Below are positions 1 to 51,866 of a DNA stretch of 64,000 nt, one piece after another. Within the stretch, counting starts at the first letter, position 1. Each line of letters starts with the position of its first letter. A program made the translations under genes and the position numbers. Location of the stretch: NCBI GenBank assembly GCA_001599295.1, contig BCGN01000007.1, positions 770,470 through 834,469 on the forward strand, given 5' to 3'. Below the pieces are notes generated by a model, which saw only the letters and a program-made list of their open reading frames with translations, was not told the origin of the DNA and did no database searches. The stretch is from Sporopachydermia quercuum (Eukaryota; Ascomycota; Sporopachydermiomycetes; Sporopachydermiales; Sporopachydermiaceae).

Positions 1-356
1 CTAAGCCAACGACTAAGACCTACACTGTCACCACTTGTGACAAGGGTACTTGCACTGAAATCACCAAGACTTCGACCGGTCATGAAACTCCGGCTACTAA
101 GCCAACGACTAAGACCTACACTGTCACCACTTGTGACAAGGGTACTTGCACTGAAATCACCAAGACTTCAACCGGTTATGAGACTTCTGGCAAGCCAACT
201 ACCAACCCAGATACCAAGCCAACTTCTGAACCCGCTCCTTCACCATCAACTTCTACGTCAACCGTGACAGCTGAAACTTATACTGGTGGCAGTAACAAGT
301 TAGCTCTTTCTTCTTCACTTCTTGCTTTGGGTAGTTTCTTCTTCATGCTCGTTTAA
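1..356 (+). CDS. GPI-anchored cell-wall repeat protein, C-terminal end
   Basis: Partial gene entering from the left edge; the reading frame starts at base 3 and ends at TAA 354-356. The translation is Thr/Ser/Pro-rich and contains two 32-residue repeats with the core TYTVTTCDKGTCTEI, the kind of Thr-rich Cys-containing tandem unit seen in yeast flocculins and adhesins. After a Thr/Ser/Pro stalk comes a small-residue stretch (GGSN, a plausible omega site) and a hydrophobic tail ending in FFFMLV, the usual GPI-attachment signal. It is therefore probably a cell-surface mannoprotein. The ligand-binding N-terminus lies outside the window, so adhesin function is inference. Another open frame over the same bases is a shadow. 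Confidence 0.85.
   Translation, partial: KPTTKTYTVTTCDKGTCTEITKTSTGHETPATKPTTKTYTVTTCDKGTCTEITKTSTGYETSGKPTTNPDTKPTSEPAPSPSTSTSTVTAETYTGGSNKLALSSSLLALGSFFFMLV
3..194 (+). repeat. Two 96-bp in-frame tandem repeats
   Basis: Copy 1 is 3-98 and copy 2 is 99-194. They are nearly identical at the base level and encode the 32-residue Thr-rich unit of the GPI protein. More copies may lie to the left of the window. Confidence 0.9.
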
Positions 357-28019: not shown

Positions 28020-28163
28020 CGTAAAATATTTTGGTTGAATGGAGTTCAATGGAAAAAATTGGTATACTTGTTGAAAATATTAGAATGAAGAAAATTCGGG
28101 GCGATCAAGAGTCGATTGTCTATCTTTTACTAGTAAATTTCTGTAAAAGAAGACGATGTATGG

Positions 28164-28171
28164 TTTATATA
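28164..28171 (-). promoter_or_regulatory. Candidate TATA box of XYL2
   Basis: TATATAAA on the coding strand, 145 bp upstream of the XYL2 ATG. Confidence 0.5.
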
Positions 28172-28497
28172 GATTGTCGACAATCCATATCTGAACGTTG
28201 AATTTCGAAGTATATACGTATGTTTAGTTCAGTATTTATCCAGATTTTATCAACAAAGAAATAAATTTATCTCGATTGTGGGGAAATTGTGTGGAGTACC
28301 AAGTCTTGAAAAGTCATTAACGAATTTTCATATTTTTATTTGTCATTTTCCTCGTATCAATTACCTGGTTTAGACATACTTACGTTGATACTCGACAACG
28401 CTGCCAAAAGCGTGTTTTTCAGAATCATAAATTTCCCCTGTTTTTCTTGATTTGGAGTTGATGTTTAGAATCCGAAAACCGTTTCACTAAAATATAT

Positions 28498-28518
28498 ACC
28501 TAAACTTAAAGTTTAGGT
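28498..28518. repeat. 21-nt dyad, 10-bp perfect arms
   Basis: Arms ACCTAAACTT and AAGTTTAGGT around a single central A. It is 480 bp upstream of the XYL2 ATG, a possible binding site for a dimeric regulator. Confidence 0.7.
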
Positions 28519-29305
28519 TTTATATTATGAAATTAGTACATGAAATTTCCGGATTTTTTTCTCGTAATACATACTTTAATAAGTAACTCCATCCTTTCTC
28601 CAGATTCTCCATCTCTTCTCTACTTCATTACAAGAAAATAAAAGTTTTCTCATCGTACTCACTATCTGAATTCAAGGGTTCCCCATCTCTTTGAACTGAA
28701 ACAATTGGAACACAAAGTTTTNCCCCCACAATTTCTATTGTTCATATCAGTCGTTTCAATTACCTTCTTCGTCGGGTTTTCTTCTTCGTCCAGTTTTACG
28801 TACCCCAGATTCAGATTTAGGAAGATATTTCTGGTTCAACTTCCGAGTCTTAACTCTATCTCCTCGCCTTCAGAATTGTGGGTTGGTGGCTATTTTACTT
28901 CGGAGTTCTGTTATATTTGTGGAAACTTAAATCTCGTGTTTGCCTCAGGACATAAAATAGACTATTGTTGGTAGAAGCGTGACAATCAGTGAAGAAAAGG
29001 AAACGCGAAGATGCTGAATCAACTGTCAATTACTTATTCTGATATTATTCAACTAGTACTCAATATTTACCAACCTCAAGGTTTATCTTGGTGCTCATTT
29101 CTTTTCAATGAAGTGCATTCTATGCGTTTCCTTCAAACACACCATATCCAATATAATTAGAACTTCCCATTCTACTTTAAGTATAATCTATCTAAAGTGT
29201 ATTGAGTTTATTCAAACTATCTATGTGCACTAAAAAAACAAATAAACATCAACCAAAACACATACATTCATTTCTCATTCAATATCTGTATATTCATCCT
29301 TAAAG

Positions 29306-30313
29306 CTAATTGGCTTCTTCAATCTCCTTTGCAAGAATCTCACGAGTAAGACCATCATATTTAACAAAGGTAGCAATTGCATCTTTAATTCTGAAAGTTG
29401 CAATTTCATTAGCAGCAATAGCTTTCTCAAGCTTGGTATCATCATCCATATAAGTTTGCTTTGGTGGAGCGTCCTTAACATCAACTTTAGCTGGAAGGGC
29501 AGGCCTGTAATCAGCAGGAGCAGGAGTGTTGATGAGTTTTTCTAAACATGGGATAGGGATGGTCATACCGTCAATACCACTGAGACCTTCAGTTACTTTA
29601 ACACTAATCATAGCGGCAGCAATGTTTTCACACTTGATACCATATGCTCTGTAATAGTTATGTAAATCTCTAGTTAAGGCCCAGCCATAGTTATCTTCAA
29701 GATTATCGTACTCCTTCAATAAGGATAAATCAATGTTTGCTGCTAATTCATCAACATAAGTAGAAATAGCATGACAACCAGCTTCAGCAGCGGCAATTCC
29801 TTGAGGAACTGAATGAACCATGGTACCAAGAGTCTTAATTCCCTTAGTCTTGAGGATTTGAGCAGCCTTTAAACCAGGATAAGTAGAAGGAACTTTGATA
29901 ATGACCTTGTCAGTGGGGACATCAAGATTGTTATAAGCCTTAATATAAGCTTCGGCAGCAGCAACAGTCTTTTCAGTATCATACGCAAAACCAGGATAAG
30001 TTTGAGTTAATGAGTGTCCCTTAACAACCTTCAACATATTCNTACCGAGGATAGCTGAGATGTAATTGATAACGGCATCAACAAAACCATCTTTACCATC
30101 TTTCTCGATTGAGTGGCCAAATTGCTTAGCATATTGGATAGCTTGCTTAGCTAAAGTAGGATCTTTGTTTAACATAAACCAAATGTGAAATTGGTTAGAG
30201 GTAGCATTATCAAAGTATCCAGCTGGCTTAATAGCTAAAGCACCCTCAGGCCACATGGTATCAACACTGATAGTGGTGTGTTCGGCAATAGCGTCGAGTA
30301 AGGTGATAGTCAT
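29306..30313 (-). CDS. Transaldolase-family protein, atypical
   Basis: A 335-aa class I aldolase of the transaldolase fold. KVIIKVPSTYPGLKAA carries the Schiff-base Lys (Lys140), matching VLIKIASTWEG of TAL1. SVDTMW gives the Asp equivalent (Asp18), and TSNQ (Asn40) matches the TTNPS region. The catalytic Glu of TAL1 (STEVD) is replaced by Gln104 in LTQTY at the same spacing, and the usual LTLLFS strand is LGTMVHS. So this is not the ordinary pentose-phosphate TAL1 but a divergent paralogue. Gln at this place is also found in fructose-6-phosphate aldolases. The true reaction is unknown. The ATG at 30313 gives a normal N-terminus and the stop is TAG. It lies between XYL2 and a sugar porter, consistent with sugar metabolism. 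One codon contains an N. Confidence 0.85.
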   Translation of the reverse strand: MTITLLDAIAEHTTISVDTMWPEGALAIKPAGYFDNATSNQFHIWFMLNKDPTLAKQAIQYAKQFGHSIEKDGKDGFVDAVINYISAILGXNMLKVVKGHSLTQTYPGFAYDTEKTVAAAEAYIKAYNNLDVPTDKVIIKVPSTYPGLKAAQILKTKGIKTLGTMVHSVPQGIAAAEAGCHAISTYVDELAANIDLSLLKEYDNLEDNYGWALTRDLHNYYRAYGIKCENIAAAMISVKVTEGLSGIDGMTIPIPCLEKLINTPAPADYRPALPAKVDVKDAPPKQTYMDDDTKLEKAIAANEIATFRIKDAIATFVKYDGLTREILAKEIEEAN

Positions 30314-31501
30314 TTTGAAAGAATATTGAATGGCTGCTAGTTCACAAGTAGTGGTACTGGGACGTGTAGTGAGCGGTAAATGAAGTGGTGTTTGTTTTTA
30401 ATTAACTACGTTATGTAATAAAGCCAAGAAATGAAAATATAGAGGAAATATGAATGAAAAACTGGGATCGAAGTGTTTCTTATAGTAGCTATCTATGGTT
30501 TCCAGATTGAACTTCTCTGTGCGGAGAAATCACCAGATTTGGTTACCTTTCCTTAAGATTAGAAGTGAGAAAATCAATAATAAGTACTCTATCTAAAGCT
30601 TGATTGAAAGAATGAAGATAAAATTCTTCAATTAAGCTTCAACAGAATACTTTAAAATATTCAATAAGGGATAGACGGGCTCCTGAAAAATTGATCAGTA
30701 CCAAGTCGTACCATGTTGCCTGAATGGGAATGAAATACGATGTCAAATCTCCAGATTCCCCACAATTCGGAAAGATAGCCAAAGTGGGTACTACGAGTTA
30801 TCCGAGTGATTGCTCTTTAAAGGAATATGAATACGAGTTATGCGAACAACTCTTTTACTGGCAAGTGAAACTGGAACTTAATCTTATCACTATTGCATCC
30901 TTCTGCGGGGAAATTTCTTTTTANTACGTTATGATAATCGTGTTTCTATTATTGCTTTACTTTGTTCTTGTTTAGTAAAAATCCTTTCGCTAATGACTGC
31001 GAAAACAGTCAGAGAAACTTCAAAACTTAACTTTTCTCATGCTATACTTAACCCTGGAATAAGACACAATTACGTACACTAATATCCATTTCTTGGCTTG
31101 ATGTTGAAACAACCACATTTAATTTCATATTCTCCCTAAAAGCAATATTGAATATTCAAAACAACTCAAACAGTTCCAATTAAAATAAAACTGTTCTATA
31201 TTTTTATTTTTCTTCAATAATTTCAGGAATTCATCTCACAGGGTATTCAATAAAAATTTCCCCACATTTAACTTTTACTTAACCTTAAACCTTAAAATTT
31301 TAAAAACATCATCACAAAACTATAAAAACGAGACTTGATCCACCAAATAAATAATTTACCTCTCCCAACATTCCTTTTCATCTATTGCTTAATCTTTATA
31401 ATCAAGCAAGGAAGAGTGAGAGTAATAACAAAAACAACACATTAATACTCAGTTTAAACTAGAGAATTTAGTGGAGACTGATAACCAACTCTCTACTCAT
31501 T
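30314..31501. other. Divergent promoter region, 1.2 kb
   Basis: Shared upstream region of the transaldolase-family gene (-) and the sugar porter gene (+). An 83-codon open frame at 30724-30975 with a hydrophobic end was judged unsupported. The part just before the porter is A/T-rich, as in strong yeast promoters. Confidence 0.55.
31321..31328 (+). promoter_or_regulatory. Candidate TATA box of the sugar porter gene
   Basis: TATAAAAA, about 175 bp upstream of the ATG at 31502. Confidence 0.5.
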
Positions 31502-33088
31502 ATGGCGGACCGAAAATATATTGGAGGTTCGGGCCAAAAGCTCAATTTCTACTTAACATTTGCAACATGTACTGTGCTTGCATTCTATGGTTATGACCAA
31601 GGTGTCTTTGGTGGTGTTATTATTGGAGATAGCTTTCTCAAACAATTTGGCTACCCTAATGAGGATGTCATTAGTGAGTTGACCTCAGTTTATAATCTTG
31701 GTTGTTTTGCTGGTGCTGTTGCTTGTATGTTCGTTGGAGACTGGTTAGGAAGACCACGTACTCTTATTACTGGTACCTCCTGGATTCTGGTTGGTGCTAT
31801 TATTCAATCAGCTTCTTATTCACAAGCACAAATGTACGTTGGCAGAGTTGTTGCTGGTGTTGGTACTGGTATGAATACTTCAACAGCTGGTATTTTCCAG
31901 AGCGAAACCGCAAAATTCAGCTCTCGTGGTCAGTTGGTTATTCTTCAAATGGCTATGTGTATTGCTGGTTTCAGTCTTTCCAATTGGTTGACTTTCGGAT
32001 TTTCTTACGTCAGCGGTCCAGCTTCCTGGAGGTTCCCATTAGCATTTCAAGTCGTCTTCTGTTTCATGATTTACGCTATTTGCCCATTTTTACCTGATTC
32101 TCCAAGATTATTGGTTCGTAAGGGTAAGACAGACGAGGCTTTGAATGTACTTTCAAAACTTGCTGGAAAAGATGTTCCAAAGGAGGATGAAGAAGTTCAA
32201 AATACTTATAAGAATATCATTGCTGTTCATGAATTAGAAGAAGAAAACAAGGTGTCTTGGATGGACTTGCTACGTGGTAGAGGACCAGTTGGTTCAATGA
32301 GAAGAGTGGTTCTTGGTATGGGAATGCAAGCTATGAATCAGTTAAGTGGTATCAATATTACATCATACTATTTTGCTTGGGTCTTAATTAATGCTGTTAA
32401 CACGTCAGAAGAACTATCAAGAATTCTATCCTGTGCTGGATCAGTTGTTTATTTATGTTCTTCTTTATGTTCTTACTGGACTATTGAAAGATTTGGTAGA
32501 CGTAGAATGATGATGATCTCTTCTGCTGGTATATGCTCTTGTTTCATTGGTATTACTGTCTGTTTATCCTTGATTGGTAAGAATGGGGGAAGCAATGACC
32601 ATGGCCTTGGTGTTGGTGCTACATTCTTTTTCTTCTTATTCTTTGCATTATTTGGTATTGGTTGTCTTGGTGTCCCATGGTTATATCCCTCCGAAATTAA
32701 CAGTTTGGAGTTAAGAACAAAAGGTGCTGCTTTGGCTACAGCTACCAACTGGATTACTAATTACATGGTTGTAAGAGTCACGCCTCCAGGTATTGCTAAC
32801 CTTGGATGGAAATTTTGGATTGTGTGGATTTCTATCAGTGCTTCCTTCATCGTTTTCACTTACTGTTTCTATCCTGAAACTGCTGGTAGAACTCTTGAAG
32901 ATATCGATACCTTGTTCAACAGAGATTTACCTGTTTTCGTTTTCAGGGAAAAACTCGCCGTCCAATTAAAGAGACCTCAAGAGTTCATTGATCAAGAGAA
33001 TGAAAATAATCACTACACCGAAACTGACGAAAAAGACGTGTCAGTTGTCCATGAGGAGGAAACATCTACAAATTCAAAAAGCGTTTAA
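31502..33088 (+). CDS. MFS sugar porter (hexose/pentose transporter-like)
   Basis: A 528-aa, 12-span plasma-membrane sugar:H+ symporter or uniporter of the sugar porter family. Family motifs in order: YGYDQGVFGG in the first span, DWLGRPRT after the second, GRVVAGVGTGM in the fourth, PDSPRLLVRKG after the sixth (D replacing the common E), NQLSGINITSYY in the seventh (QxxGxN-type), ERFGRR after the eighth and YPETAGRTLED after the twelfth. The C-terminal tail is acidic and Glu/Thr/Ser-rich, as in transporters removed by ubiquitin-dependent endocytosis. Divergent from the transaldolase-family gene and 3.5 kb from XYL2, so a pentose or hexose substrate is likely; which one cannot be read from the sequence. 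Confidence 0.92.
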   Translation: MADRKYIGGSGQKLNFYLTFATCTVLAFYGYDQGVFGGVIIGDSFLKQFGYPNEDVISELTSVYNLGCFAGAVACMFVGDWLGRPRTLITGTSWILVGAIIQSASYSQAQMYVGRVVAGVGTGMNTSTAGIFQSETAKFSSRGQLVILQMAMCIAGFSLSNWLTFGFSYVSGPASWRFPLAFQVVFCFMIYAICPFLPDSPRLLVRKGKTDEALNVLSKLAGKDVPKEDEEVQNTYKNIIAVHELEEENKVSWMDLLRGRGPVGSMRRVVLGMGMQAMNQLSGINITSYYFAWVLINAVNTSEELSRILSCAGSVVYLCSSLCSYWTIERFGRRRMMMISSAGICSCFIGITVCLSLIGKNGGSNDHGLGVGATFFFFLFFALFGIGCLGVPWLYPSEINSLELRTKGAALATATNWITNYMVVRVTPPGIANLGWKFWIVWISISASFIVFTYCFYPETAGRTLEDIDTLFNRDLPVFVFREKLAVQLKRPQEFIDQENENNHYTETDEKDVSVVHEEETSTNSKSV

Positions 33089-34597
33089 ATGAGAAATGAA
33101 TTGTTTTATTTTAGTTACGTCAAAGTATAGTTAAAATTGTTTTAATAAATTATTAAGTAATATGTATGAAAGGAGTTGACTTAGTAAGAGTNGGAAAGCA
33201 AATCTAGCGAAACTATCTTCGGTTAGCGGTATACCACGGCTGAGAATAACAGCAAGAGAAAACACCAATGATATTGTGGCATGACTATAAAATACGATCG
33301 ACAAACGGGCTTAATTAGCTAGAAGTTTTATTGAAGAACTGATTTGATTTCGAACAACTGTAGAAGAAAACATTCTGACTCATTTTGTTCCATATCTCCA
33401 AATAACGCATAACTGTTGAGAGTGAGACGTAGGCCTCANTNGACCACGTGACATAGAGGGAACTTTTCTCCACTTGGCCTCTTGATTTATTTGTTCCCGT
33501 ACAAGAACGCTGTTCTAGAGAAGAAGTGGCTCTTCGAAGGTCAGCCGCCAGAATGATTTCTTTTCCTGACTCAAGCGAATAGCTTGTTATTCGCTGCAAT
33601 AATTAATAATAATTATTATTATTCAACTATTCGTATTTCTCGCCAAATAACTATTTATTCTCCAAGAGTATCTTTCTTTCTATCACCTACTTCAATTTGA
33701 TCCCGACGATAATGCATGTCAGGTTCATGAGTAATTTTCTTGATGTATCAAAATAGACTTGTATAGTGACTGATGTTGAATAGTATGCTAATAAAGCACA
33801 CTACTTACTCATCATGGCATTAATGCTGTCACACATTGTCATTATCCATTATCCTCATAAGGTATAAAGTTAATCTATTTTAACAAGGTTTCAACCTTAA
33901 CTTTGTTTTTCTTTTATCCCTACCGAAAGATGCAAAACTCCTGCGTCTTAGAAAAGACTGCCCGTAGGTATGAATTAGACTCTTCGTTCAGCACGAAAGG
34001 TTCCAAGAAAATGAGATCCAATATTGCTCACCATTTGAAGTTTGAAGGTCGAAACTTCCGCAATTTAATTTGAAGGACTCTAGGTTAGCTCATGATCAAA
34101 TCTTCGCCAAATTTTCCCGGTGAAAAATTTGCCTAAAAGCCTGTGATTATCATTAATAAGAAACCATATATGCTACTGACAAAAACCTAAACATGAATAT
34201 GCTCAATAATTCCTCCGGATAGTAAGTGAAAATTCGTCCAGTGCAAAGATCGAAAATTAATGGGTAGTATAATGAANTTTTTCAGACTATAGTAAAAATA
34301 ATTGTGAATTATAATAAATGTGAATTATATTAGGGGTGAATCCGTGTTATAACTAATAAGAAGATTCATTACTTGCACTAAGTGTTCGAATAAACCAATC
34401 AGTTTTTTTCTCTTCCATAGCAAAAATGAAATAAAATAAAAATGAAAGAAGATCAACATTCTCCTTGACCAGAAATTTTATNTAAATATAAATTGTATCA
34501 AATCAAACAAAAAACTAGAGTAATGTGTCCTGCACATTATTAACTGAATAAACGTAGTAAAATAAATCTATATCAATTATCTAGAGGTGAATCAGGT
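33089..34597. other. Convergent intergenic, 1.5 kb
   Basis: Between the 3' ends of the sugar porter (+) and the Lac12-type permease (-). It includes one CACGTG (33445-33450) and an AAT/ATT-rich palindromic tract near 33599-33623. No gene is supported. Confidence 0.6.
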
Positions 34598-36307
34598 CTA
34601 ATTCTTGTTTTTTTCTTCAACAAGCTCCTCAGCATCTTCGGCCCCTTCACTATCACTTTTGGTTGGTGCAATCTTTTCAACATCTCTCACGAAAACCTTT
34701 CGTTTGGTATTGTTACAGAAAAGTGTAACCCAGATATTTGGGTCTTCGTTCTTTTCTTCAAAAATCTGTTCAATATCTTCTAAACTGAAACCGATAGTTT
34801 CAGGGTAAACAAAGTAAACCCACACCAAGATGAATAAGAGAACAAAGACGTAGACCAAGTAATATTTCCAGCCAATCTTATCAATGGCAATAGAATTAAC
34901 AAAATTATTAAAAATGGCAAAGATAGAGTAACCGTTCAATGAAAAAGCAACACCTTTTGCTCTAAGATCAAATGAGAAAATTTCAACAGGATAAGAAGTT
35001 GACATTGGAGTGTAAGCAACATCATAGAAACCAAAGAAAACATATAGGAACGGGATAACAGCAGTAGCAGCTCCATTATTACCATGGATTTGGAATTGAG
35101 CAGTTAAGGCAGTGACTAAAACGAATGAAACAAGCATACCAAAAGTTGAAATGAGGAACAAAGGTCGTCTACCGAATCTGGAAATCGCCCAAGAACCAGC
35201 AAGAGCAAAGAAAATGTTCCATAATTGTAAACAGCCATTGATCAATGTTTGATCAGTGATATCAGTGATACCAATACTATTAAGCATATCAACCAAATAA
35301 TAAGAGATAATTGAATTACCGCAAATGGCTGTGAAGATACCTAGTGAATAGGCAATAACAGATCTATGAATATTAGCTTTGCTTTTGAATAAATCTTTCC
35401 ATGATGATGCATTCGTTTGTTCCATAGAAATACTTTCCTGTAATTCTTTCATTTCAACATCAATGAGGGCGTCATATCTTGGGTCACCACCACCATGGTG
35501 TTTCAGTAAGACGGCACGAGCTTTATCAATTTCACCTCTACCTACTAACCAACGAGGACTTTCAGGAACGAAAAAGAAAATTATCACAAGACCAATTCCT
35601 GGGAAAACGACTTGTAATAANGTTAATAGTCTCCAACTCCAGTTGCCAGTCATATTTCTAATTCCATATGTGATCCAGGCACCGAAGAATGATCCAATAT
35701 AGTAAAAACCTAAGAAAATGGAAGATAAGAAACTTCGGTGAGAAGGATAAGCATTTTCCGTGATTGCAACAACTGCCTCATTACCAGCAACAATACATAA
35801 ACCTTGTAGGATTCTGAAAGCAGTAAACATTCCAACATTTTGAGAAAAAGTTTGAATAATACCGAATACAATAAGTAAGGTACAGAATAAAATAGCAGTC
35901 CATCTTCTACCCAAATGATCACAACATGGTGGTCCAACGAACAAAGCAAGGAAACTACCAAATGCAGAAGCACCAATAATAAAACCTTTATATCCACCAG
36001 TTGGATTTCCAATGAAATCCATGAATGCTGTAAATGCTTGACAGTTGTTCAACAATGAATCAACATATCCATAAGCAGCGGCCAACATGCAAAGTCCTAA
36101 AATTCCAAAATTCAATTTGGCGAGATGAGGTAGCTTATACCATGGCTTAGTATCTAATGGAATAACTGCTGCAATAGCACTTCCAAGAGTCTTTTCGTAT
36201 TCCTTGTATTTTTGAAACTGTTTCTCGGTCAAATTTCCAGGAAATTCTCTTGAAGTTGAAGCACTTGTAGCTACTTCATAGACTTCAGCATTTACTTCCT
36301 CCTTCAT
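34598..36307 (-). CDS. Lac12-type disaccharide/beta-glucoside permease
   Basis: A 569-aa MFS sugar porter of the lactose/cellobiose permease subgroup. The N-terminal WYKLPHLAKLN before span 1 is characteristic of Lac12 relatives. Further family motifs are DHLGRRW, PESPRWLVGRGEIDKAR, SRFGRRPLF and YPETIGFSLEDIEQIF. The C-terminal tail is charged and Glu-rich. The ATG at 36307 is the first in frame; the stop is TAG. It is divergent from an intracellular GH3 beta-glucosidase gene 2.3 kb away. The natural reading is uptake of cellobiose or another beta-glucoside for cytosolic hydrolysis. Lactose transport is possible, but no beta-galactosidase is present in the window. One codon contains an N. 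Confidence 0.9.
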   Translation of the reverse strand: MKEEVNAEVYEVATSASTSREFPGNLTEKQFQKYKEYEKTLGSAIAAVIPLDTKPWYKLPHLAKLNFGILGLCMLAAAYGYVDSLLNNCQAFTAFMDFIGNPTGGYKGFIIGASAFGSFLALFVGPPCCDHLGRRWTAILFCTLLIVFGIIQTFSQNVGMFTAFRILQGLCIVAGNEAVVAITENAYPSHRSFLSSIFLGFYYIGSFFGAWITYGIRNMTGNWSWRLLXLLQVVFPGIGLVIIFFFVPESPRWLVGRGEIDKARAVLLKHHGGGDPRYDALIDVEMKELQESISMEQTNASSWKDLFKSKANIHRSVIAYSLGIFTAICGNSIISYYLVDMLNSIGITDITDQTLINGCLQLWNIFFALAGSWAISRFGRRPLFLISTFGMLVSFVLVTALTAQFQIHGNNGAATAVIPFLYVFFGFYDVAYTPMSTSYPVEIFSFDLRAKGVAFSLNGYSIFAIFNNFVNSIAIDKIGWKYYLVYVFVLLFILVWVYFVYPETIGFSLEDIEQIFEEKNEDPNIWVTLFCNNTKRKVFVRDVEKIAPTKSDSEGAEDAEELVEEKNKN

Positions 36308-36473
36308 TTTAGTAACCGTAATGTGTGATATATTAAAGCAACTCTCTTCAAAAAGCAGAGTAAATTAAAGATAGTTGATGTAGGAATGTAAGAAAGCCTT
36401 GATTAGTAAAGATATAAGCCGAACAATGAAATAAGTACCAACTCAGAGGAAGCAAATAAACAGGCTACCCGAG

Positions 36474-36481
36474 TATTTATA
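36474..36481 (-). promoter_or_regulatory. Candidate TATA box of the permease gene
   Basis: TATAAATA on the coding strand, 167 bp upstream of the permease ATG. Confidence 0.5.
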
Positions 36482-38457
36482 TCTTGATGAGATTGACCAC
36501 TTGGGAGATGTTTAATGTCAGGTTTCAGAAATTATCTCTCGATATAAGTTTTCTAAACCTATCACTAGTTTGACTAATTAATGCTTTCCTCTTTATCAAA
36601 TGAACTGGTTTTGATTCTTTAGCAGGAAGTTTTACGTTATCTTTAAAAGCTGAATGGAAATCGTTCAAATCTCCAACATAGTTTCAGTAAGATAGTGAAT
36701 GATAAGATCTATCAATTCTGTAAATCAATCTTGGCCCAAAANAAACAACTGGTAATTATAACCAATTGAAGAAAACATTCAGATGACTTGAGGGAATCTT
36801 ACGAAAAGACTTAATCAAAAGAAAAGAAGATTCAACAATTTAAATCAAACATAAAGGAACTTTTCTAGTCGAGTTTTATAAAAGCAGTAAGGGAAAGAAG
36901 ACATTTTGTTAGTTGGATAGAAATCGGTTGATTAGATATAACCTTGAAAAAATAAGCTTCGCGTTTGGCGTAACTTTATTTAAATCGAATTTTGAACCCT
37001 ATTAAGGTTCAAGAGTCAAAAGTTACACAACAGCTCAATTGGGAAAGAGGTTTAACAATCTTTAATTGACAGTGCTATTTTCCTCTCCGTTTTCTCTTTT
37101 CCCGTTATTTAAAAGGGCAAGATAGATCAGAAGATGATTTAATACCGTAAATGCTAACTGGGGTATCAAAGCTTCCTTGTTATAGAGTTGAAATGTCACA
37201 TTGCTTCTAACGCCTTCCCGTATTTTTATCCTGTAATTCATTGTAATGGATAATGGAGACTCACATTGAGCTGACAGNTAATACATCTTTGATTTATAGT
37301 TTGTGAATAATTAAAGTTTAACTGAAAACTCTATATAGCACAGTAATTATCACTTAGGTTTCAGCCAAATAACCAAGACCCAGCAAACCGGAACTGATCC
37401 CAATTTGAAGTCTTGATCTCTTGCTCCACTGTTGTGCTAAAAGCTTATGTAGATATTTCTGCTACCAGGAAGGATTATAAGCTTTTGTAACCGTACTTCT
37501 TTCTATAATATATTTTTTGGAACATCAATCTCTGATAAGTTAACAGGATCGTAAAATAAAAGATGGACTANGAACTAGGAACCTGACGAAGAAATTAGTA
37601 AATCAAGTGATTAATCTTAGCTCGCAATTAAATGGAATAGTTCCAACTAAAAATACATAGGGTTTTATGTAAATCCATAAGAGGAAGGAGATAGGTAGCG
37701 ATTTGAAAATGTTACAGTTTCAACAATCTATCTATCAAATTCAAACTTAGAGTTTCTCCATTCTTATGAGTGTGCGTAGAGGTCTCCAACTCCCTGTTGT
37801 GACTGTATTTGAGCATGTCAGAACAATTTTTTCTCTCTGACAATAAACAAAAACTAGAAAACAACAGTTAAAAAAACATTTAAGGACGTAGAGAAGCAAT
37901 ATCATGTTTTATTCGCTAAAATCTTCCCCTTTCCTGGGAAAATTGTTAGTTTTACCATTTTAAAGGTGAGGTTCTCAAATTGTAGACTTTGAAAACCAAC
38001 NGTTAAGGTTTGGCTAATATTTCATATTAGGAAAGCCATTGGTCACTATTTTATGGCAACCGGAATAAAGTATCAACGGTTTTATGGTTAGTTCAAGCAT
38101 AGTTTTCGAATAGCTTATCTTAGCTGCCAGGCACAAGATAATAGATTGTAGAAGCACCGAACTAGGACAATCAAATATTTCCCTTTTCCTCAATTCTCAT
38201 CATTCGTTTTAAGCTTTCATCACTGCAGTAGATGGGTTTCTTTTTTTTTAGTAAATTTGGGGATCATTGCTTTCCTTAAATGTCTAAGAACTCCCCAAGT
38301 GGATATAGAAATAGACATATTACTTTGCCATGCTTGATGCCTATTGAAGTGGATTTGTATTGACTTACTTAGCTTCCTTCTAGTTAAAGGAGGGTCAAGG
38401 TTTTGGGTTCTTTTATTCACTGGGATTGTTTCTAACATTTTACTAAGACTTTTGGAT

Positions 38458-38465
38458 TATATATA
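38458..38465 (+). promoter_or_regulatory. Candidate TATA box of the beta-glucosidase gene
   Basis: TATATATA, about 150 bp upstream of the ATG at 38614. Confidence 0.5.
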
Positions 38466-38613
38466 GTTGTCACTCAGACGCGGAACTATCTCTATCTCAT
38501 CCTTTGTCAGGTTTCATTCCGTTGTGAAATCCAAAGCTCAAATAGTATTGCGAATTAGTAGCGTTTACCAAATATCCTACAATATCAACCTACTAATAAA
38601 GAATCGGTGAAAA

Positions 38614-41112
38614 ATGGTCGAATTAACTCCAGAAGAAATTGTCAAGCAGTTGACACTTCAAGAGAAAATCCAATTGTCAGCTGGTAAAGATTGGTGGCAT
38701 ACCTACCCAGTCCCAAGACTTGGTGTTCCATCTATTAGATTATCTGATGGTCCTAATGGTGTCAGAGGCACTCAATTCTTTGATTCTGTGAGATCTGCTT
38801 GTTTTCCCTGTTCAACAAGTTTAGGCGCTTCTTTTGATAAAGAGTTCTCCTTTAAAGCCGGTGAATTGATGGCTAAAGAAGCCAAAGCAAAGGGTGTTCA
38901 CGTCATTCTTGGCCCTACTCTTAATATCGTCAGAAACCCTCTAGGGGGTAGAGGTTTTGAATGTTTCTCAGAAGACCCAACTCTTACCGGCATCCTTGGT
39001 GGAGAAATAATCAGAGGTATGCAAAAGCATGGAATTGCTGCCTGTGTAAAGCATTATATATGCAATGAAATTGAAAATCATAGATTATCATCAAACTCAA
39101 TTTTGACTGAAAGGGCTTTAAGAGAGGTTTATATTCGTGCTTTTGAAGTAGCTATCAAAATCGGTGATCCTAAAACTCTTATGACTTCCTACAACAAAAT
39201 GAATGGTATTCATTGCTCTCAAGATAAAAGATTAATCAATATAGCAAGAAAAGAATTAGGTTTTAATGGTGCCATTATGTCTGACTGGGGTGGAACTTTT
39301 TCTGTTGAACAAGCCTATGATGCTGGTCTTGACATAGAAATGCCAGGATCTCCCAGATTCAGAAAAGTTGATGTTGTAGAGCATTTATATTCATCTCATG
39401 AAACTAATGAAGAGTTGATTGAGGAAGCTGCTTTGAACGTTTTGAAGCTTGTTGAATATGCAAAGAAGAATTCTGGAGTACCTGAAGATGCCCCAGAGAC
39501 AACAGATAACAACACTCCTGAAACATCAGCTAAGTTACGAGAACTAACAGCCAGTGGAATTGTTTTACTAAAGAATGAGAATAATTTATTACCTTTCAGC
39601 AAGAAAGACAAATTGGCTATCATTGGACCAAATTCTAATTACATTACAACTTCGGGTGGTGGTTCTGCTGCGTTGAGACCTTATTATAATGTTACACCCA
39701 TTCAAGCTTTTACTGAGGTACTAGAGAACGCTCCTTTATCTCATAAAGGTTGTTATAATCATAAGAAAATCCCAGAAACTCTTTTAATCAATCCGGAAAC
39801 CGGCAAGCCTGGAGCTTCAATGAAAATCTTCTTAGAATCTCATTCTTCTGCTTCCAGAACGTTGGTTGACCAAAGAGTTCTTGACTCAACTCATTTTAGT
39901 ATGTATGATTACTATCATGAAAAGATATCTGATTTTAAGTTCTATGCTGATATTGAAGGCTATTTTGTACCAGAATCTACCGGTACATATGAATTTGGTA
40001 TTGGCAATTTTGGTGCTGCTAATTTGTTCATTAACAATGAAATGATTATTAAAAATGATGATAATGAAAATCCTTTCAGTGCCTTATTGACAGAAGATTA
40101 CCCCGAGAGACATGCTCAAGTAGATCTCGTGAAAGGTGAAAAATACTTGGTGAAAGTTGAATTTGCATCTGCTCAAACATTAGAGATACCACCTTCTAAA
40201 GAAGCTGGTGGTGGTGCTGTTAATTTTGGTTGTTTCCAAGTGGTTGATCCAATTGATATGATCAATGAAGCTTGTGATGTCGCCAAGAGTGCTGAGAAAG
40301 TTGTTCTTGTTATAGGATTGAATAAAGATTGGGAATCTGAGGGTTATGATAGAAAGGATATGAAATTACCTGGCTATACTGACAAACTTGTTGAAGAAGT
40401 ATTGAAAGCCAATAGCAATACCGTTATTGTTAACCAATCCGGTACTCCTGTTGAAATGCCATGGATTAAAGAAGCTCCTGCTGTTCTACAAACTTGGTTT
40501 GGGGGATTAGAAGGTAATAGAGCTATTACTGATGTCATATTTGGTGAAGTCAATCCTTCTGGTAAATTACCTGTGACATTTCCTCTTAAAACTGAAGATA
40601 ACGCCAGTTATCTTACGTTCCATACTGATGGAGGTAATGTTATTTATGGTGAAGATATTTTCGTTGGATATAAATATTTCGATGGTCATAAGAAAGAAGT
40701 GTTATTCCCGTTTGGCTATGGTTTGTCTTACAGTAGTTTTGCTGTTTCTAACTTGAAGATTGCTGATAAAGGAGAAACTGTCCATCTTACTGTTGACGTT
40801 GAAAACACTAGTGATGTTGATGGTGCTGAAGTTGTTCAAGTTTATATTTCTGCACCTGAAGTTGAAGATGTTCCTAGACCTGTTAAACAACTGGTTGATT
40901 TTAACAAGGTTGCTGTTAAGAGCAAGGAAAAAAAGGTAGTTACATTTGCTATTGATAAACAAGACTCTACAAAATATTGGGATGGTTGGACCAATTCCTG
41001 GTGTAGTCTTGAAGGGGAATACAAGCTATTGGTTGGAACTTCAAGTCAGGATCTTGAACTAGAAGCTGTTTTCAAACTGGACGAAACTTTGCGTTTTTAT
41101 AGCCCCAAGTAA
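38614..41112 (+). CDS. Intracellular GH3 beta-glucosidase with PA14 insert
   Basis: An 832-aa glycoside hydrolase family 3 enzyme of the Kluyveromyces-type beta-glucosidase layout. The N-terminal barrel has LSDGPNGVRG, GRGFECFSEDP, VKHYICNE and the nucleophile Asp224 in IMSDWGGTF. The alpha/beta sandwich domain begins near IVLLKNENNLLPF. It is interrupted at roughly residues 400-550 by a PA14 segment (IEGYFVPESTGTYEFGIG), which in this family sits over the active site and limits substrate size. The domain then resumes with GLNKDWESEGYDR. The C-terminal fibronectin III-like domain contains VVQVYI and PVKQL. There is no signal peptide (MVELTPEEIVKQL), so it should act in the cytosol on imported beta-glucosides. 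Divergent from a Lac12-type permease, with a Zn2Cys6 regulator downstream. Confidence 0.95.
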   Translation: MVELTPEEIVKQLTLQEKIQLSAGKDWWHTYPVPRLGVPSIRLSDGPNGVRGTQFFDSVRSACFPCSTSLGASFDKEFSFKAGELMAKEAKAKGVHVILGPTLNIVRNPLGGRGFECFSEDPTLTGILGGEIIRGMQKHGIAACVKHYICNEIENHRLSSNSILTERALREVYIRAFEVAIKIGDPKTLMTSYNKMNGIHCSQDKRLINIARKELGFNGAIMSDWGGTFSVEQAYDAGLDIEMPGSPRFRKVDVVEHLYSSHETNEELIEEAALNVLKLVEYAKKNSGVPEDAPETTDNNTPETSAKLRELTASGIVLLKNENNLLPFSKKDKLAIIGPNSNYITTSGGGSAALRPYYNVTPIQAFTEVLENAPLSHKGCYNHKKIPETLLINPETGKPGASMKIFLESHSSASRTLVDQRVLDSTHFSMYDYYHEKISDFKFYADIEGYFVPESTGTYEFGIGNFGAANLFINNEMIIKNDDNENPFSALLTEDYPERHAQVDLVKGEKYLVKVEFASAQTLEIPPSKEAGGGAVNFGCFQVVDPIDMINEACDVAKSAEKVVLVIGLNKDWESEGYDRKDMKLPGYTDKLVEEVLKANSNTVIVNQSGTPVEMPWIKEAPAVLQTWFGGLEGNRAITDVIFGEVNPSGKLPVTFPLKTEDNASYLTFHTDGGNVIYGEDIFVGYKYFDGHKKEVLFPFGYGLSYSSFAVSNLKIADKGETVHLTVDVENTSDVDGAEVVQVYISAPEVEDVPRPVKQLVDFNKVAVKSKEKKVVTFAIDKQDSTKYWDGWTNSWCSLEGEYKLLVGTSSQDLELEAVFKLDETLRFYSPK

Positions 41113-43632: not shown

Positions 43633-44565
43633 TGTGAACGATGTATGTAATGAAAGATCTGTTAGGGATGTACAGCATCAAGAATTAGGTGGATGTAACA
43701 ATGAGCAGTTTGTTAACTTCGATGATATGAGAAACTGAGGGGAAACGAATAACTGGCAGCAAGCTGAAAATTGGTAAACAACCATTAAATTTGTTCTGCC
43801 AACATTTGACATTGACGTTAACAATTAGGGCTTTCAAAGGGCTCTCAATCTGGTTAGATCAATATCAATTGTGATAGTACATTTTGTTAGTAATCAATGC
43901 TTGATGACTTATAGAAGTGATTCAGACAAGTGATACCTTTCTGATAGACCAGAAAAAGTTAAAGAAAACGAGTTTGGTTAATTATTTCCCGATGCAGAAC
44001 AAGAGATTATGCTTAAAATTTTAAGTTTGAACCTAAATGAAGTTTGGAGCAACTTAATATTGGACTGATTCTATTTTTCAGTTTTTGTCTTGTTATTTTT
44101 TCTTTAAACAAAACAGAAGTTTCAGAAAATGGATAAAATTCTAGTAATCGGATATTTCTATCAAAATATGCTCGATTCACTTTACCTTTACGTATATTTT
44201 TCTTCTTCTGATAATGTGAGGCTAACTGAAGTTAGGTAAGGTAACTTAACGACTCCATCAAAAGAGGCTCACTTTCACATAATCGCAGTTTTCCGGAAAT
44301 AATAAGCCAGTTTCTTTTCCGCTTTTTCGTTTTTATTCCTTCTTCGGATCTTCTCTTATTATTTCTCGTCTTTTGATCATTCATTAGTCTTATCTATTTA
44401 TTATTATGGAACTCTATTAATACTTATCTTTTATCCATAAACGAAGAAAATATTCGAATGGAAGTTCTGAGGTTTGATTCGTACTTTAGATTTGGTTGCA
44501 TTTTTGGAGGAATTATAACTAAGTCTGTTGTAAGGGATCCTGTGATTATAGTGATTGATTTCAAT
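43633..44565. other. Divergent intergenic, 0.9 kb
   Basis: Between the second Zn2Cys6 gene (-) and TFB5 (+). Nothing beyond promoter-like AT-rich sequence is recognised. Confidence 0.55.
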
Positions 44566-45260
44566 ATGCCCAGAGCTATCAAAGGTAAGCCTCATCGTAC
44601 TGCATGATTGGTTGGATACAATGTATTGGAATGTCAGATGCACTCCAATTTGGGTGGGATATTACCTCTTAGATGTATCTAGAGGAAAGGATATATGATT
44701 TGCTGTCTGTCCTGAGCTCTGTCTTGAGCTCCTGTCGGCTCTATCATCACTATAGAGCCATTCGAACTATTTTCATGTTCTGTTTATATTTCTTCAATTT
44801 GCATTAATCTGACATTTATATTTTCTAGGCGTTTTGATTGAATGGTAAGCCTATTAGAATTATCTTGTATGAATAACATATAATGCTCATCAAATGGTCA
44901 TCAGGTCTATTTCCATGCAATTTACTGCGGTCGTTGTTTTTCCTTTTACATTCTAACATCTGAAAGTGATCCTTCAATCAAAGCTTTGATTGTCAAAATC
45001 GATGCAGACAAGAACATGCATGATATCATAATCGAAGTATGTATTTTCATAAATACCTTTCGTTGGAAAATCCTGCCGTGTTTCGCGAGGTCTATAAGAA
45101 TGAAAGAATATTCTTTCCTTAGTTTTACTGACAAACATAGGATTTGGATGACACACATCTACTAATTGATAGCTCAAAAGTCGATAAAGTGAAGTTTGAA
45201 TTAGATAGGCTATTAGCTGAGAACACATATAATCCACTAGATGACGAGCAAGAGGTGTGA
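44566..45260 (+). CDS. TFB5: TFIIH subunit Tfb5, four exons including a 16-nt exon
   Basis: Exons 44566-44584, 44829-44844, 44967-45036 and 45141-45260 join to a 225-nt frame encoding 74 aa. The protein starts MPRAIKGVLIEC, continues DPSIKALIVKID, then DLDDTHLLIDSSKV and ends ENTYNPLDDEQEV. This matches yeast Tfb5 and human GTF2H5/TTDA along its whole length (yeast has CDPSIKALI, ELDDTHLLVNPSKV and IYNPMDEEE). The product is the smallest core subunit of TFIIH, needed for transcription initiation and nucleotide excision repair through Tfb2 and Ssl2. Introns of 244, 122 and 104 nt start GTAAGC, GTAAGC and GTATGT and end CTAG, AAAG and ATAG. Branch-like sequences are CTGAC, TTCTAAC and TACTGAC. 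Intron phases are 1, 2 and 0. Exon 2 supplies only VLIE and parts of the flanking Gly and Cys codons. No single open frame reveals this gene. Confidence 0.95.
44737..44759 (+). repeat. Hairpin inside TFB5 intron 1
   Basis: GGCTCTAT (44737-44744) and ATAGAGCC (44752-44759) form a perfect 8-bp stem with a 7-nt loop. A duplicated TGAGCTC lies just upstream. The segment is more GC-rich than the rest of the intron. Confidence 0.65.
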
Positions 45261-45917: not shown

Positions 45918-48900
45918 TTACAACTGTTGACCTTCTGATAAGCTCAAGCCTTGCACATCTTCCTCCAGAGAATCTAGAACATCGCTCTCTTTTCCCTCTT
46001 GCTCTTCCTCCAAAACTGGTTCTCTCACTTGTTCTTTATCATCAGTTGATAACTTACCCATAATATCAGTAATCCATACTACTAAAGCATCTACTTCCAT
46101 CACATCTTGCATCTTCTCTTTGTCTTCAGAATTGACAATCGAAGCGACCATGTCATTATAATAATGCTCATATATTTGAACAACCAATTCCTATACCGTT
46201 AGTATAACTGGACACATCATAAGCATGTAATTAAACGTTGCCTTTGAAAGTTCACATCCTACCTCAATTTATACAGCTTTAATCAAAAATTAACACTTAC
46301 TTGTATTCCATCCATTAGAACGTCAACTATCTTGTAATCTGTGAAAAACTGTTCAATTTGATGTTTCAATTCAGGAATAACAACCATACAGTCGTTAAAC
46401 AGCTGCTGAGTGTCTTCTTTCACAGTAGCCAACGATGGTTCATGCTCTGGTGTTTTAATAATGCTTTTAACAACTTTGTGCGCTGATTCTGCCGTGAATT
46501 CATGAATAGAGTTACGCAACATTGTTTGGAGTTCCTGTAACATTTGTTAATATTGGAATAAGTCATCAAAATGGAGATAAAGGAGGCTTTAGCATTTCAG
46601 CGGAGTGAGATGGTCGTAGACAATGCACTATTCCTGTACACCATTGAGTCAATTTCTTTCCGATAGCTTGTTGTGTTTTGCCCGTCGATTTTACACTGTA
46701 TGCTAATCCCACATGTTTCTTTCTCTCTAACAGGAAGTCATAATTAGATGGCCTCATCCTATCAAAATTTATCAATTAGCCGAACATGAGAACATTTAAA
46801 AATGCGATTGCTGTCCTACTAAGAATAATCATACTAGAAATTATCCTCAAACTGTTCTCATGCCAATCTTCTAAAACCAAACTCTCTCAAAACCAGCAAC
46901 TCATCTAATAAATATACTAAAAAATCTTCCTCAAGTACATCAATTTTATACTTACAGCCTTCGCATCAATCATATCATTAACAACTCTAGGCACAGATTC
47001 CATTGCTAGTTTGAACAATCCATCCTGAGTGAAAATAGTAGACATTCCTTGCGTTTTAATAGTATTATAAATATCATTAAACCCAGAAAAATCTACTCTT
47101 ACATCAGATCGGAAGTAGTCAGAATATTCAATATCAAATGATTGAATTTGATCCTTCAAAAACACCATATGCTTGATAAGAAACAAATACGCATCGGTTG
47201 ACCCCACCTTGGTAGAATAGAGCTTGTATGCTTTGTTCAAAGCCATGATAGATGCATGAACAATCTGATGAGCCAAATCATCAAAAACAGAAGACTGGGA
47301 ATAGAAAACGTTAGCAGTTGCAACTAAGGTAAGCAAGGATTCTTGGATAGAACATAATCACTCAAAAAAAGGGAAATCAACACAAAATAAAACACTTACA
47401 TTAACCAATTGATAAATGCTTGATAATAGTGACAACGCCAGCGACATTGGAGGATACCAACCTTGAAATAACTGCATGGAATCTAGAGATGCAACATCAG
47501 CAACCGAATCGTGTCTATTAGTGGAAAGCTTTGCCAATTGGGAACTGCTGCCATTCTCAGAATTCTTATTTGAGACAGTCGAATTCTTTCGTCCTCCTAA
47601 ACGTAAATCTTCCATTTTGGGCTCATACTTCCATATGTTCTCATCAACAAAAGCTTGAACTCGGAATACTAGCCTGCCTTGCACGTCTTGATACACTACA
47701 GTAAACACATCGCCGTATTTGATACTGGGACGCTCTTCTAAAGCATATTCTGCCATATCCTCATCGTCCTGAATGATCCGTTGTAAAATTGATGTCAATT
47801 CACATAAGGAAGAAACTTTTGACTCCCGGATAATCCTATTACGTAGAGCATCTGTCAGCGGTTCGGCCAAATGGTAATACAGTTTGTACAGCTCGGATTC
47901 ACCCTTAGTGAAGAACATAAAGAATAAGTCATACTCATCTTTACAGATCTTCATAGTATAGTTGATACCTTTCTGAGCAAATAGTACCAAAGATGTAGGA
48001 TTTGCGTTCGCCGTTTCAGTAACCGTCCTCTTAATAATAGGGATCAAAAGCCTGCTTCTTATACCTATGTACAGGTCATAGTACTCATTCAGCAGGCTTT
48101 CGTATTCATCAGACTCCTCAGCTCGTAGAATCATCTCACCAGTTAATCTATGTATCGCAGGTGCCTGCGGCGACGAGGAAAAAGTTGTATACAACAAAGC
48201 ATCCTGCGCAGTAGCATTTCCTTGCCTCACAGTCTTCAGTTTGTTCGTTACTTCATTTCCAAGCTTTTTCAACGCATTGGATACATACGTATATATCAAT
48301 GACAATGCACGAGTCATGCATTGGCGGAATCTCATTGTATACAAATCAATATGCTTATAATTAGGATGCTGGGACAAAAAATCCAAGCATTCGTCTAATT
48401 GGCTTAAGAGGGTCTTGAAATTATCAGTAGTGACAAAAGACGATCCTGGTGCATTCAGCTGTTTTACCATACCATCTAGTCTATCGAAATACTTCAATTG
48501 TTCAGACAATTCTCTATTCAGAGTGTTCAAACTCTCTTGATCACGAAGAAGTTTCCCAGACACTGATTGGAACTCTTCCGTCCCTTTATACACTTTTTCA
48601 AATTTGTGTGACAGCATATTCAAGACAGATTGTATATCACCAGTCTGTCGCAACAGAGCATCGCAAAGGTCAGAATTAACAGATGTGAACTCAGTGAATT
48701 TATTCCATGGTTCAAATTCAATGCTGAAGCTTTTTTCCATATCAACTTCATTCCAAAGCTCACCATGTGTTGATGGTAGCATGTCATGTTTAGACAAAAG
48801 ATATTCTTCTTCTATAAGTGTGAAAGGATAAAGGATGGTGGTTGAAGATGGGATTAAGTTCTTACTCGATGATTTCTTGATATTCAATAGGGCGGTAGTA

Positions 48901-49164
48901 TCAATTGACTCTGCGCGTTGCTTTCTTGTTTTTGCTGGTTGGATTGAAACCTCCTGTAGCATTTTGTTAGTGATTAGATCATAAGAAGTACATATGAGAT
49001 ATGAACAAATTGATGATACATACATTGTTAATCGAGGCATTCAAAGCAATGCTTTGTAGAATTGACTGACCTCTAGAACGACGTTTATGGTGATGAGTAT
49101 AAACAGCAGGCGTTGTAGGTGTTGCTGGTGAGCCATTGGTGGCATATGAGTAATCATCAAACAT
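45918..49164 (-). CDS. COG3: COG complex subunit 3 (Sec34), five exons
   Basis: Exons on the minus strand: 49164-49024, 48953-47400, 47294-46956, 46534-46301 and 46190-45918, giving 846 aa. Every exon is a multiple of three, so all four introns (70, 105, 421 and 110 nt) are phase 0. Donors are GTATGT, GTAAGT, GTAAGT and GTAAGT; branch sites are CACTAAC, GCTAAC, TATTAAC and TACTAAC. The Sec34 family signature HPNYK...LYTMRFRQCMTRAL is at about residue 243. VFDDLAHQIVHASI and FLIKHMVFLKDQI follow, and the joined junction IDAKA-ELQTMLRNSIHEFT and the end DGIQ-ELVVQIYEHYYND continue the family alignment. Cog3 is part of lobe A of the conserved oligomeric Golgi tether for retrograde intra-Golgi vesicles. 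Budding-yeast COG3 usually has no intron. Confidence 0.93.
46785..46862 (-). repeat. Folded element inside COG3 intron 3
   Basis: Within the 421-nt intron, CATGAGAACA pairs perfectly with TGTTCTCATG (10 bp, 58-nt interior). Inside it AGGATAAT can pair with ATTATTCT with one G-U. This may be an intronic structured RNA; no snoRNA box set is convincing. Confidence 0.5.
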
Positions 49165-50046: not shown

Positions 50047-51431
50047 TTATCGTCGTTTATATATACAAGGCTTCAACAACCATTCTCCCTCAGCTTTCAC
50101 TCTTCTCTTTCTCTCGAGGGCTTCTACAGTATCATCGTCATCACCATCAATGAACTTACTCTTACTCTTCTCTTTAGCTCGTCGTTCATTCAATATATCC
50201 ATAGGTGGCTTGAAGAACTCGAATCTAATAAACATCTTGTTGCTATTATCAGTTTTCTTATGGAAAAAGCCAAATTTCTTCAAAACGTCAATAAATTCGG
50301 TACCTTCTTCATCAGAAAAACGTGATTTGATCTCAGCAATCCATAACTCTCCTCGTGGGTTTAAAATTCTCCATGCTTCTTTTATGAAATCAAGGAAGTT
50401 AGTACCCATAAGAGCTAAACAAAAGATAACTATTGAACAGCTGTTATCTTGTAAAGGGACATTCTTAATATCAGCCACTGTGATTCTCCTATTGACAGCT
50501 TTTAGATCAAAGCTATGTACAACCAGTCTGATAGGTCTCTTCTTTCTATCTTTCTTAATCTTTGCATTGAATTCCTTGATTGCTTTATCTACATCTAGAG
50601 CAAACATAGCTTCACCACAACCCATATCAGCTATCACCACTTCTTTTGAAGGAATACATGGTAATCCACCAGGAGCTCCAACAGGTTTCTCAGTCCTTTC
50701 TTTCACTAAATTCACAAACGTGTCAACAGGATTTTCAGGCCATGAATGAACTTGGTTTCTGAATCCATTATGATACTAGATTCTTTTGTTAATACATTTC
50801 CTCTTGACTCATCATAATGATACCAATGAAGATATATTCCAAGTTTAACCAACAAATTTTCACTTACTTCGTCAAACAAATTTGGTTGTTCCTTAACCAA
50901 CTTCATTGCATTTTCAGAGCTTGAGGTATACAGTTGTTCGTTAATCCATCTGAATCTTGATCCTGATAGCTTAGCTAGCATCTTCTGTTGTAATGGTGTC
51001 AATTTACTAGTATCAAAAATTTGCTCTGTACTTTCAGAGCCAGTTGATTTGTTTGCCTCTCGCCCACCTTTGGTTTTTCCTTTGCTATTTTCTTCACTCT
51101 TCTTAGCCTTTTTGAATTTTTGTGAAGAGTTTGTTGCTTGTTCTTTGAAACTATCGTTTACTTCCTCTTCCTCTTCCTCTTCCTCTTCCTCTTCTTTATC
51201 TACTGGTTTCCTCTTTTTCTGAGAGTTATTTTCCTGCTCCGGACTTCCTACATCAATTTTATTATTATTGTGATCCAGTAATGCTCTTTCTTCTATCTCT
51301 GTGTCAACTTCGGTTTCAATGCTCTTCCTTTTGTTTTTTTTATCCTTCTTACTCTTCTTCTTGTTCTTTTTGGCTTCTCCTACTGCAATTTTGGATGGCA
51401 ATTTCCATCCATCTACTTGAAACAAAGCCAT
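50047..51431 (-). CDS. RRP8: 25S rRNA adenine-N1 methyltransferase Rrp8, two exons
   Basis: Exon 1 is 51431-50868 and exon 2 is 50775-50047, giving 430 aa. The 92-nt intron starts GTAAGT, has TATTAAC and ends CTAG; both sides are phase 0. The joined sequence reads FRWINEQLYTSSSE...LFDE-YHNGFRNQVHSWPENPVD, the invariant Rrp8 block, and proves the junction. The SAM-binding motif VIADMGCGEAMFALD is at about 235-249, followed by VHSFDLKAVN, the catalytic-region LALMGTNFLDFIKEA and LWIAEIKSRF. Rrp8 makes m1A in helix 25.1 of 25S rRNA in the nucleolus. The N-terminal third is a Lys/Glu-rich nucleolar-type tail with a poly-Glu run. If the intron is retained the protein loses the entire methyltransferase domain. 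Confidence 0.96.
51161..51195 (-). repeat. Hexanucleotide repeat coding poly-Glu in RRP8
   Basis: TTCCTC-type tandem units (GAGGAA on the coding strand) encode an uninterrupted Glu run in the N-terminal tail of Rrp8. Confidence 0.85.
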
Positions 51432-51866
51432 GATATTGTATTTTCTTGAAACTGGAAGAATTTTAAACCAGATTTAAGTTAATTATCTTTTATTGAGATA
51501 GCTTTTGATCTTCAATTATTCTTTCTGTTGGGGATTTTGTTGGAGAGAAGGAGGAAGATTTTTTATGCTTCACATGAGAAACGAAAAAAATTATTACTAT
51601 GAGAATAGATCCTCCTTACATAATTACATAATATGAAGAGGATAAAAGTCTTCTATTCTTTTTGAAAATGAGCGAAAAAGTAAAAACGAAATAAATAATT
51701 ATTAACTATTTTATTAGAATCAACAAAGAACAATATTTATATAAATATTCTTAAATATTAATATACTAACGAAAGAAATGAGGAGTAAAGTAGATATAAT
51801 GGAGGGAAGGGAGGACGTGTAATATATCAATACATAGTGTATGATTAAGCTAAATTGTCTGAAAAT
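51432..51866. other. RRP8 upstream region
   Basis: AT-rich 435 bp between the RRP8 start and the tRNA gene. Nothing else is recognised. Confidence 0.6.

Follow-up and report, generated by a model that had tools for sequence, protein, structure and literature searches.

A 16-nucleotide microexon in the four-exon TFB5 gene of the budding yeast Sporopachydermia quercuum

The TFB5 gene of S. cerevisiae is intronless. In Alternaria alternata, tfb5 is interrupted twice, by introns 47 and 60 bp long (PMC7488464), and in the multi-intron genes of Y. lipolytica most internal exons are short, with a minimum of 4 nt (PMC2911113). The titles and opening abstract lines of the matches listed in the open-licence literature on yeast and fungal microexons and on Tfb5 introns held no report of a TFB5 microexon; two papers name micro-exons only as a read-mapping option (PMC3990503; PMC4651352).

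Here we describe a TFB5 gene with such an exon, from a window of 64,000 nt (the whole stretch of DNA analysed) on a 1.33-Mb contig of S. quercuum; the assembly comprises 16.39 Mb in 12 contigs. On the forward strand at 44566-45260, exons of 19, 16, 70 and 120 nt (stop included) join into a 225-nt frame encoding 74 aa, and the introns between them measure 244, 122 and 104 nt, lie in phases 1, 2 and 0, and are GT-AG in all three cases. Exon 1 (44566..44584) encodes MPRAIK and the first base of Gly7, and ends in AAAG immediately before the donor GTAAGCCT. Intron 1 (44585..44828) begins GTAAGC, contains a likely CTGAC branch site with its A 16 nt from the 3′ splice site, and ends CTAG. Exon 2 (44829..44844) is the 16-nt microexon GCGTTTTGATTGAATG, which supplies the end of Gly7, the residues VLIE and the first two bases of Cys12; it is internal, has its own acceptor and donor, and falls within the ≤30 nt that define a microexon. 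Intron 2 (44845..44966) again begins GTAAGC, and carries TTCTAAC with its A 10 nt from the 3′ splice site and the less common AAG acceptor (AAAG). Exon 3 (44967..45036) is placed by spliced alignment and by its match to the joined protein; intron 3 (45037..45140) runs from GTATGT through TACTGAC, its A 9 nt from the 3′ splice site, to ATAG; and exon 4 (45141..45260) closes with a TGA stop. A prior sequence-only reading had placed all of these coordinates exactly, base for base, and was right about the four-exon structure, the partial codons on either side of the 16-nt exon, and the shortness of each exon as an open reading frame.

The product is Tfb5 from end to end, as that reading had claimed. 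The joined 74-aa protein matches Pfam PF06331 (Tfb5) at 101.8 bits (2e-29; cut-off 23.5), the match spanning residues 1-67 of the product and 1-66 of the 67 profile positions, and it matches the S. cerevisiae Tfb5 chains of TFIIH structures in the PDB at 4.9e-25 over residues 1-72 of 74. By sequence the locus encodes the TFIIH subunit p8/Tfb5, and binding to Tfb2/p52 is predicted from family membership. Calling the subunit “essential,” as had been done, was mistaken for yeast: one study describes Tfb5 as dispensable there, yeast with a complete TFB5 deletion being viable, and the mouse knock-out as embryonic lethal (PMC3630102).

To place the junctions we used a custom protein-to-DNA spliced aligner with S. 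cerevisiae Tfb5 as query against 1.6 kb of DNA. It returned precisely these junctions at six intron penalties, and the same model with splice-site preferences off, when each GT and each AG scored alike; a presumed human GTF2H5 sequence gave the same three introns in an alignment that ends at 45233. We then listed every stop-free exon of 3-60 nt, preceded by AG and followed by GT, that would join exon 1 to exon 3 without a frameshift. Nine candidates emerged, among which the 16-nt exon scored 54 and the runner-up 34. Dinucleotide-preserving shuffles of the exon 1-exon 3 interval averaged 26 in the same test and reached 54 in 0 of 2000 trials, and full spliced alignment of shuffled intervals (mean 196.0, SD 3.6) reached the intact score of 214 in 0 of 300. 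Masking exon 2 lowered that score to 194 (from 209 to 193 under flat scoring), and exon 1 was lost as well. We conclude that the four-piece gene with its 16-nt exon appears to be real, its junctions being confirmed by homology at the level of sequence.

The frame also extends upstream. An in-frame ATG at 44458 opens an ORF of 44458-44607, and the frame is open as far as 44566 (44458..44565, forward strand), which would lengthen the product by 36 aa. Exon 1 aligns with S. cerevisiae Tfb5 from residue 1 onward, and we prefer the start at 44566, the point from which other Tfb5 proteins match; 44458-44565 is more likely a 5′ leader than coding sequence.

Six-frame searches of the genome with the Tfb5 profile and the joined protein, with the best two candidates of each search scored, found no second TFB5 copy, intronless or otherwise, in the 16.39-Mb assembly. 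Both matched solely exons 3 and 4 of this locus: exon 3 was matched by the joined protein, and exon 4 alone scored 34.4 bits with the profile, above the cut-off of 23.5. Because exon 4 passes by itself, a six-frame profile search would not miss the gene. The earlier expectation that any automated annotation would probably report TFB5 as missing is overstated, since the profile finds exon 4 and protein-guided spliced alignment recovers the whole gene. For annotation this is a clean case of a small conserved gene lost by ORF-length cut-offs and regained by protein-guided splicing.

We surveyed other genes of this genome for introns and short exons. From 65 fetched loci (L004-L068) we aligned 33, comprising 11 of 13 E2, 11 of 20 Ras, one of six calmodulin-like, all four tubulin and six of eight actin loci; 14 LSM loci, for which there was no reference, were left out. 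The Ras loci tried were a selected sample, mostly those with a shortened profile match and so likely to bear introns. As candidate references we took nine Ras loci in which long frames are open, and seven of them were kept; L035 gave an erroneous product of 1 aa, and in L033 and L047 the product begins from an internal Met. The splice-weighted run gave 66 introns, of which 40, from 23 of the 33 loci, were common to three scoring runs. We dropped seven that are divisible by three in length and leave some frame open, although two of them, one in L040 and one in L062, seem genuine. The L062 case, at the 5′ end of an actin-related gene, is a 72-nt insert at 1432-1503 (GTGAGT...TTAACAC...TTAG), which despite its multiple-of-three length is more likely intron than coding sequence because its last triplet in the exon frame is TAG. 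The 33 remaining introns were joined by the four of COG3, the neighboring gene convergent with TFB5 (45918..49164, reverse strand; 846 aa; exons of 141, 1554, 339, 234 and 273 nt), to make a reference set of 37.

Microexons recur in this survey. Alpha-tubulin has exons of 25, 9, 32, 27, 79 and 1169 nt and beta-tubulin exons of 12, 36, 14, 42, 55 and 1134 nt, both unchanged with or without splice weights, and internal exons of 27 and 30 nt occur in two genes of the Ras superfamily. The 9-nt internal exon of alpha-tubulin, TTGGTCAAG, at 914-922 of the reverse-complemented locus L060, is the smallest internal exon in the survey; in the beta-tubulin gene, L059, the first 53 codons hold five introns. 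Actin exons of 7 and 14 nt are probable, being found by splice-weighted scoring only, where flat scoring reads through, and a 19-nt exon in L011, with GTAGAT as its donor and AAG as its acceptor, is questionable. Among introns common to all three runs, leaving COG3 and TFB5 aside, internal exons of ≤30 nt numbered six of 17, or five of 13 without the doubtful L011, L058, L065 and L066, in a sample that is small, author-chosen and biased to conserved genes with introns close to the start; adding the internal exons of COG3 (1554, 339 and 234 nt) makes this 6/20 or 5/16. The view that microexons are rare in budding yeasts is perhaps right for lineages with few introns, but it does not suit this genome, given exons of 9, 14, 27 and 30 nt elsewhere in it. 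Nor is the question of how so short an exon is recognized specific to TFB5; judging by the tubulin and Ras microexons and by Y. lipolytica, it is general to such yeasts. We regard the TFB5 microexon as a sound and ordinary gene model for this genome, a good instance of an exon type already described and no oddity; microexons of 9, 14, 16, 27 and 30 nt apparently occur in housekeeping genes of this yeast.

The splice signals of TFB5 are of the same general type as the reference set, with some departures. Searching the last 30 nt of each intron for a branch site, we found CTAAC in 30 of the 37 reference introns, with the branch A 8-24 nt from the 3′ splice site; the TFB5 introns carry CTAAC (one) or CTGAC (two), with the A 9-16 nt away. 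CTGAC occurs in one of 37 reference introns against two of three in TFB5, and A at acceptor position -3, as in TFB5 intron 2, in two of 37. Donors in this genome are mainly GTAAGT or GTATGT, and position +6 is T in all 37 reference introns, whereas both donors beside the microexon are GTAAGC; for each of them, three of 37 reference donors score equal or lower. Splicing of the 5′ part of TFB5 may, on these motifs, be less efficient than assumed. A candidate U1 (L071) starts with ATACTTACCTGG, the canonical 5′ end; its family score, 61.1 bits, falls short of the gathering threshold of 80. The genome also has the intron-linked factors Mago, of the EJC, and SNRNP27K; among budding yeasts, Mago and the EJC are kept in early-branching species and in Phaffomycetaceae (PMC6351623). 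We also considered intron 2 as a duplicate of intron 1, both starting with GTAAGCCT and 244 being 2 x 122, and rejected it: their local alignment is at chance level, being equalled or surpassed by 110 of 200 shuffles.

We think it highly probable that this is the single TFB5 of a Saccharomycotina yeast in which numerous conserved genes bear introns and CTG is read as Leu, and that TFB5 has inherited introns clustered at the 5′ end, a constitutive microexon and splicing by intron definition. Its three introns would be of the ordinary GU-AG type; close to the 5′ end just 16 coding bases separate two of them, forming an exon that would be included constitutively. Under intron definition each intron (104-244 nt) would be its own unit, with U1 at the donor and U2 at the CTRAC branch site, and if the introns are taken out one by one, exon length should be of little weight; exons of 16, 14 and 9 nt could then be included without a special factor. 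A 9-nt exon would be hard to square with U1 and the 3′ splice-site machinery on both ends simultaneously, which would make this genome fit for testing intron definition and the order of intron removal. The clustering itself most likely reflects old introns retained at the 5′ end, like those in the tubulins of this genome. We infer splicing in vivo, the order of removal, constitutive inclusion and the age of the introns from the gene model and its comparisons, and inclusion of the microexon in mature mRNA likewise.

Very short exons are easily invented, and the first exons might be a chance assembly with the true N-terminus elsewhere, for instance at the ATG at 44458, from which the frame is open, or through other junctions. 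When exon 2 is masked under flat scoring, an 11-nt stretch at 44886-44896 partly substitutes for it (193 vs 209), and the best shuffles come near the real scores (52 vs 54, and 211 vs 214). Yet none of the 2000 or 300 shuffles match them, the next candidate microexon falls far short, and one model holds at all six penalties, so that chance assembly is very improbable. The locus could also be a decayed pseudogene or an unexpressed copy, the model being known from DNA; but a full-length open product with conservation at family level, GT-AG borders throughout, and no further locus found in the assembly make this scarcely credible.

A different possibility is that the microexon is regulated, weak donors causing exon 2 to be skipped or introns 1 or 2 to be retained, so that frameshifted transcripts are degraded and the dose of Tfb5 is set. 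The unusual C at +6 of both donors would fit, as would the conceptual outcomes: translation would halt after 13 residues if exon 2 were skipped or intron 1 retained, and after 12 if intron 2 stayed in. A transcript still holding intron 3 would preserve residues 1-35 and then run into 42 unrelated ones. Mago is present, and multi-intron genes of Y. lipolytica show exon skipping and intron retention (PMC2911113). Weak sites are not proof of regulation, however, since a constitutively spliced gene whose sites are good enough would present the same picture, and the donors were ranked against a reference set that is small, author-chosen and weighted to highly conserved genes. Switch-like microexons are usually, not strictly, a multiple of three in length (PMC11121469), and 16 nt is not. 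We consider regulation unlikely. The stronger proposal, that the paired GTAAGC donors form a splicing module weak by design, in which out-of-frame skipping or retention leads to decay and sets the amount of Tfb5, is a decidedly long shot; if true, it would offer a simple yeast system for the splicing of exons too short for two-end recognition.

Returning to the reading with inherited introns, the position of intron 2 can be compared with that in mouse, where exon 3 of Ttda holds 83% of the coding sequence (PMC3630102). For a protein of 71 residues (the human chain) our arithmetic puts the mouse intron ~36-37 nt into the coding sequence, and intron 2 here follows coding nt 35, in Cys12, an agreement that is within 1-3 nt only. 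This fits, without proving, one ancient position for intron 2. A comparison of the joined Tfb5 protein with viral contigs gave 10 pattern matches, none of them confirmed.

The host is a budding yeast, as had been read from the sequence: its RPL3 (366 aa) scores highest against yeast chains, at 736 bits for 7pzy, 722-719 for 6uz7 and 5it7, and 714-688 for S. cerevisiae, the lowest of these coming from shortened chains, against 687 for Chaetomium, 670 for Neurospora and 659 for S. pombe; chain 9spj scores 700. From the entry codes we take 7pzy to be Candida albicans and 6uz7 and 5it7 to be Kluyveromyces lactis, and the other chain species were presumed in the same way. Among 23 CTG codons in ten genes compared with S. 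cerevisiae references, nine fall on Leu and none on Ser or Ala, and the host most likely, on these alignments, reads CTG as Leu.

Elsewhere in the window, 26854-41109 holds genes for sugar use: an alcohol/polyol dehydrogenase, a transaldolase, two sugar transporters and a beta-glucosidase, the last with 3abz as its top PDB match. At 50715-51473 on the reverse strand lies a methyltransferase gene, which we take to be Rrp8-like; because its Pfam Methyltransf_8 match reaches no further than position 42 of a 219-position profile, more of the gene very probably lies past an intron at lower coordinates. At 3-353 (forward strand) there are tandem repeats of the type KPTTKTYTVTTCDKGTCTEITKTSTG, with no Pfam match at E 0.001, which we presume to resemble a yeast cell-wall adhesin. 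The Rfam scan of the window found one tRNA and nothing else, and ARAGORN, run with the bacterial code, found none.

Compared with known systems, the protein is conventional: it resembles Tfb5/GTF2H5 (p8, TTDA, PF06331) in length and in the N-terminal RAxKGxL, CDPSIKALI and LDDTHLL blocks, and aligns end to end with S. cerevisiae Tfb5, although the gene here has four exons. Y. lipolytica is likewise a budding yeast with internal exons far under 30 nt, and it keeps EJC factors (PMC6351623), as Mago is found here; its signals differ, with mainly GTGAGT donors and a branch site adjoining the 3′ splice site (PMC13309789), in contrast to GTAAGT/GTATGT and an A 8-24 nt away in this genome. The constitutive 4-bp microexon of human MPC1 is also not a multiple of three; constant inclusion belongs to that account, where exon-defining regions were tested by minigenes, and is inferred here, and the exon is 4 bp rather than 16 nt (PMC9929638). 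Animal neuronal microexons, dependent on SRRM4 or PRP-40, share the ≤27-30 nt size, but those are regulated in the nervous system, whereas skipping the TFB5 exon would wreck the protein. The Xlr2 microexon of Trichoderma virens is fungal too, but it switches between two proteins (PMC11121469), whereas TFB5 has one sensible product.
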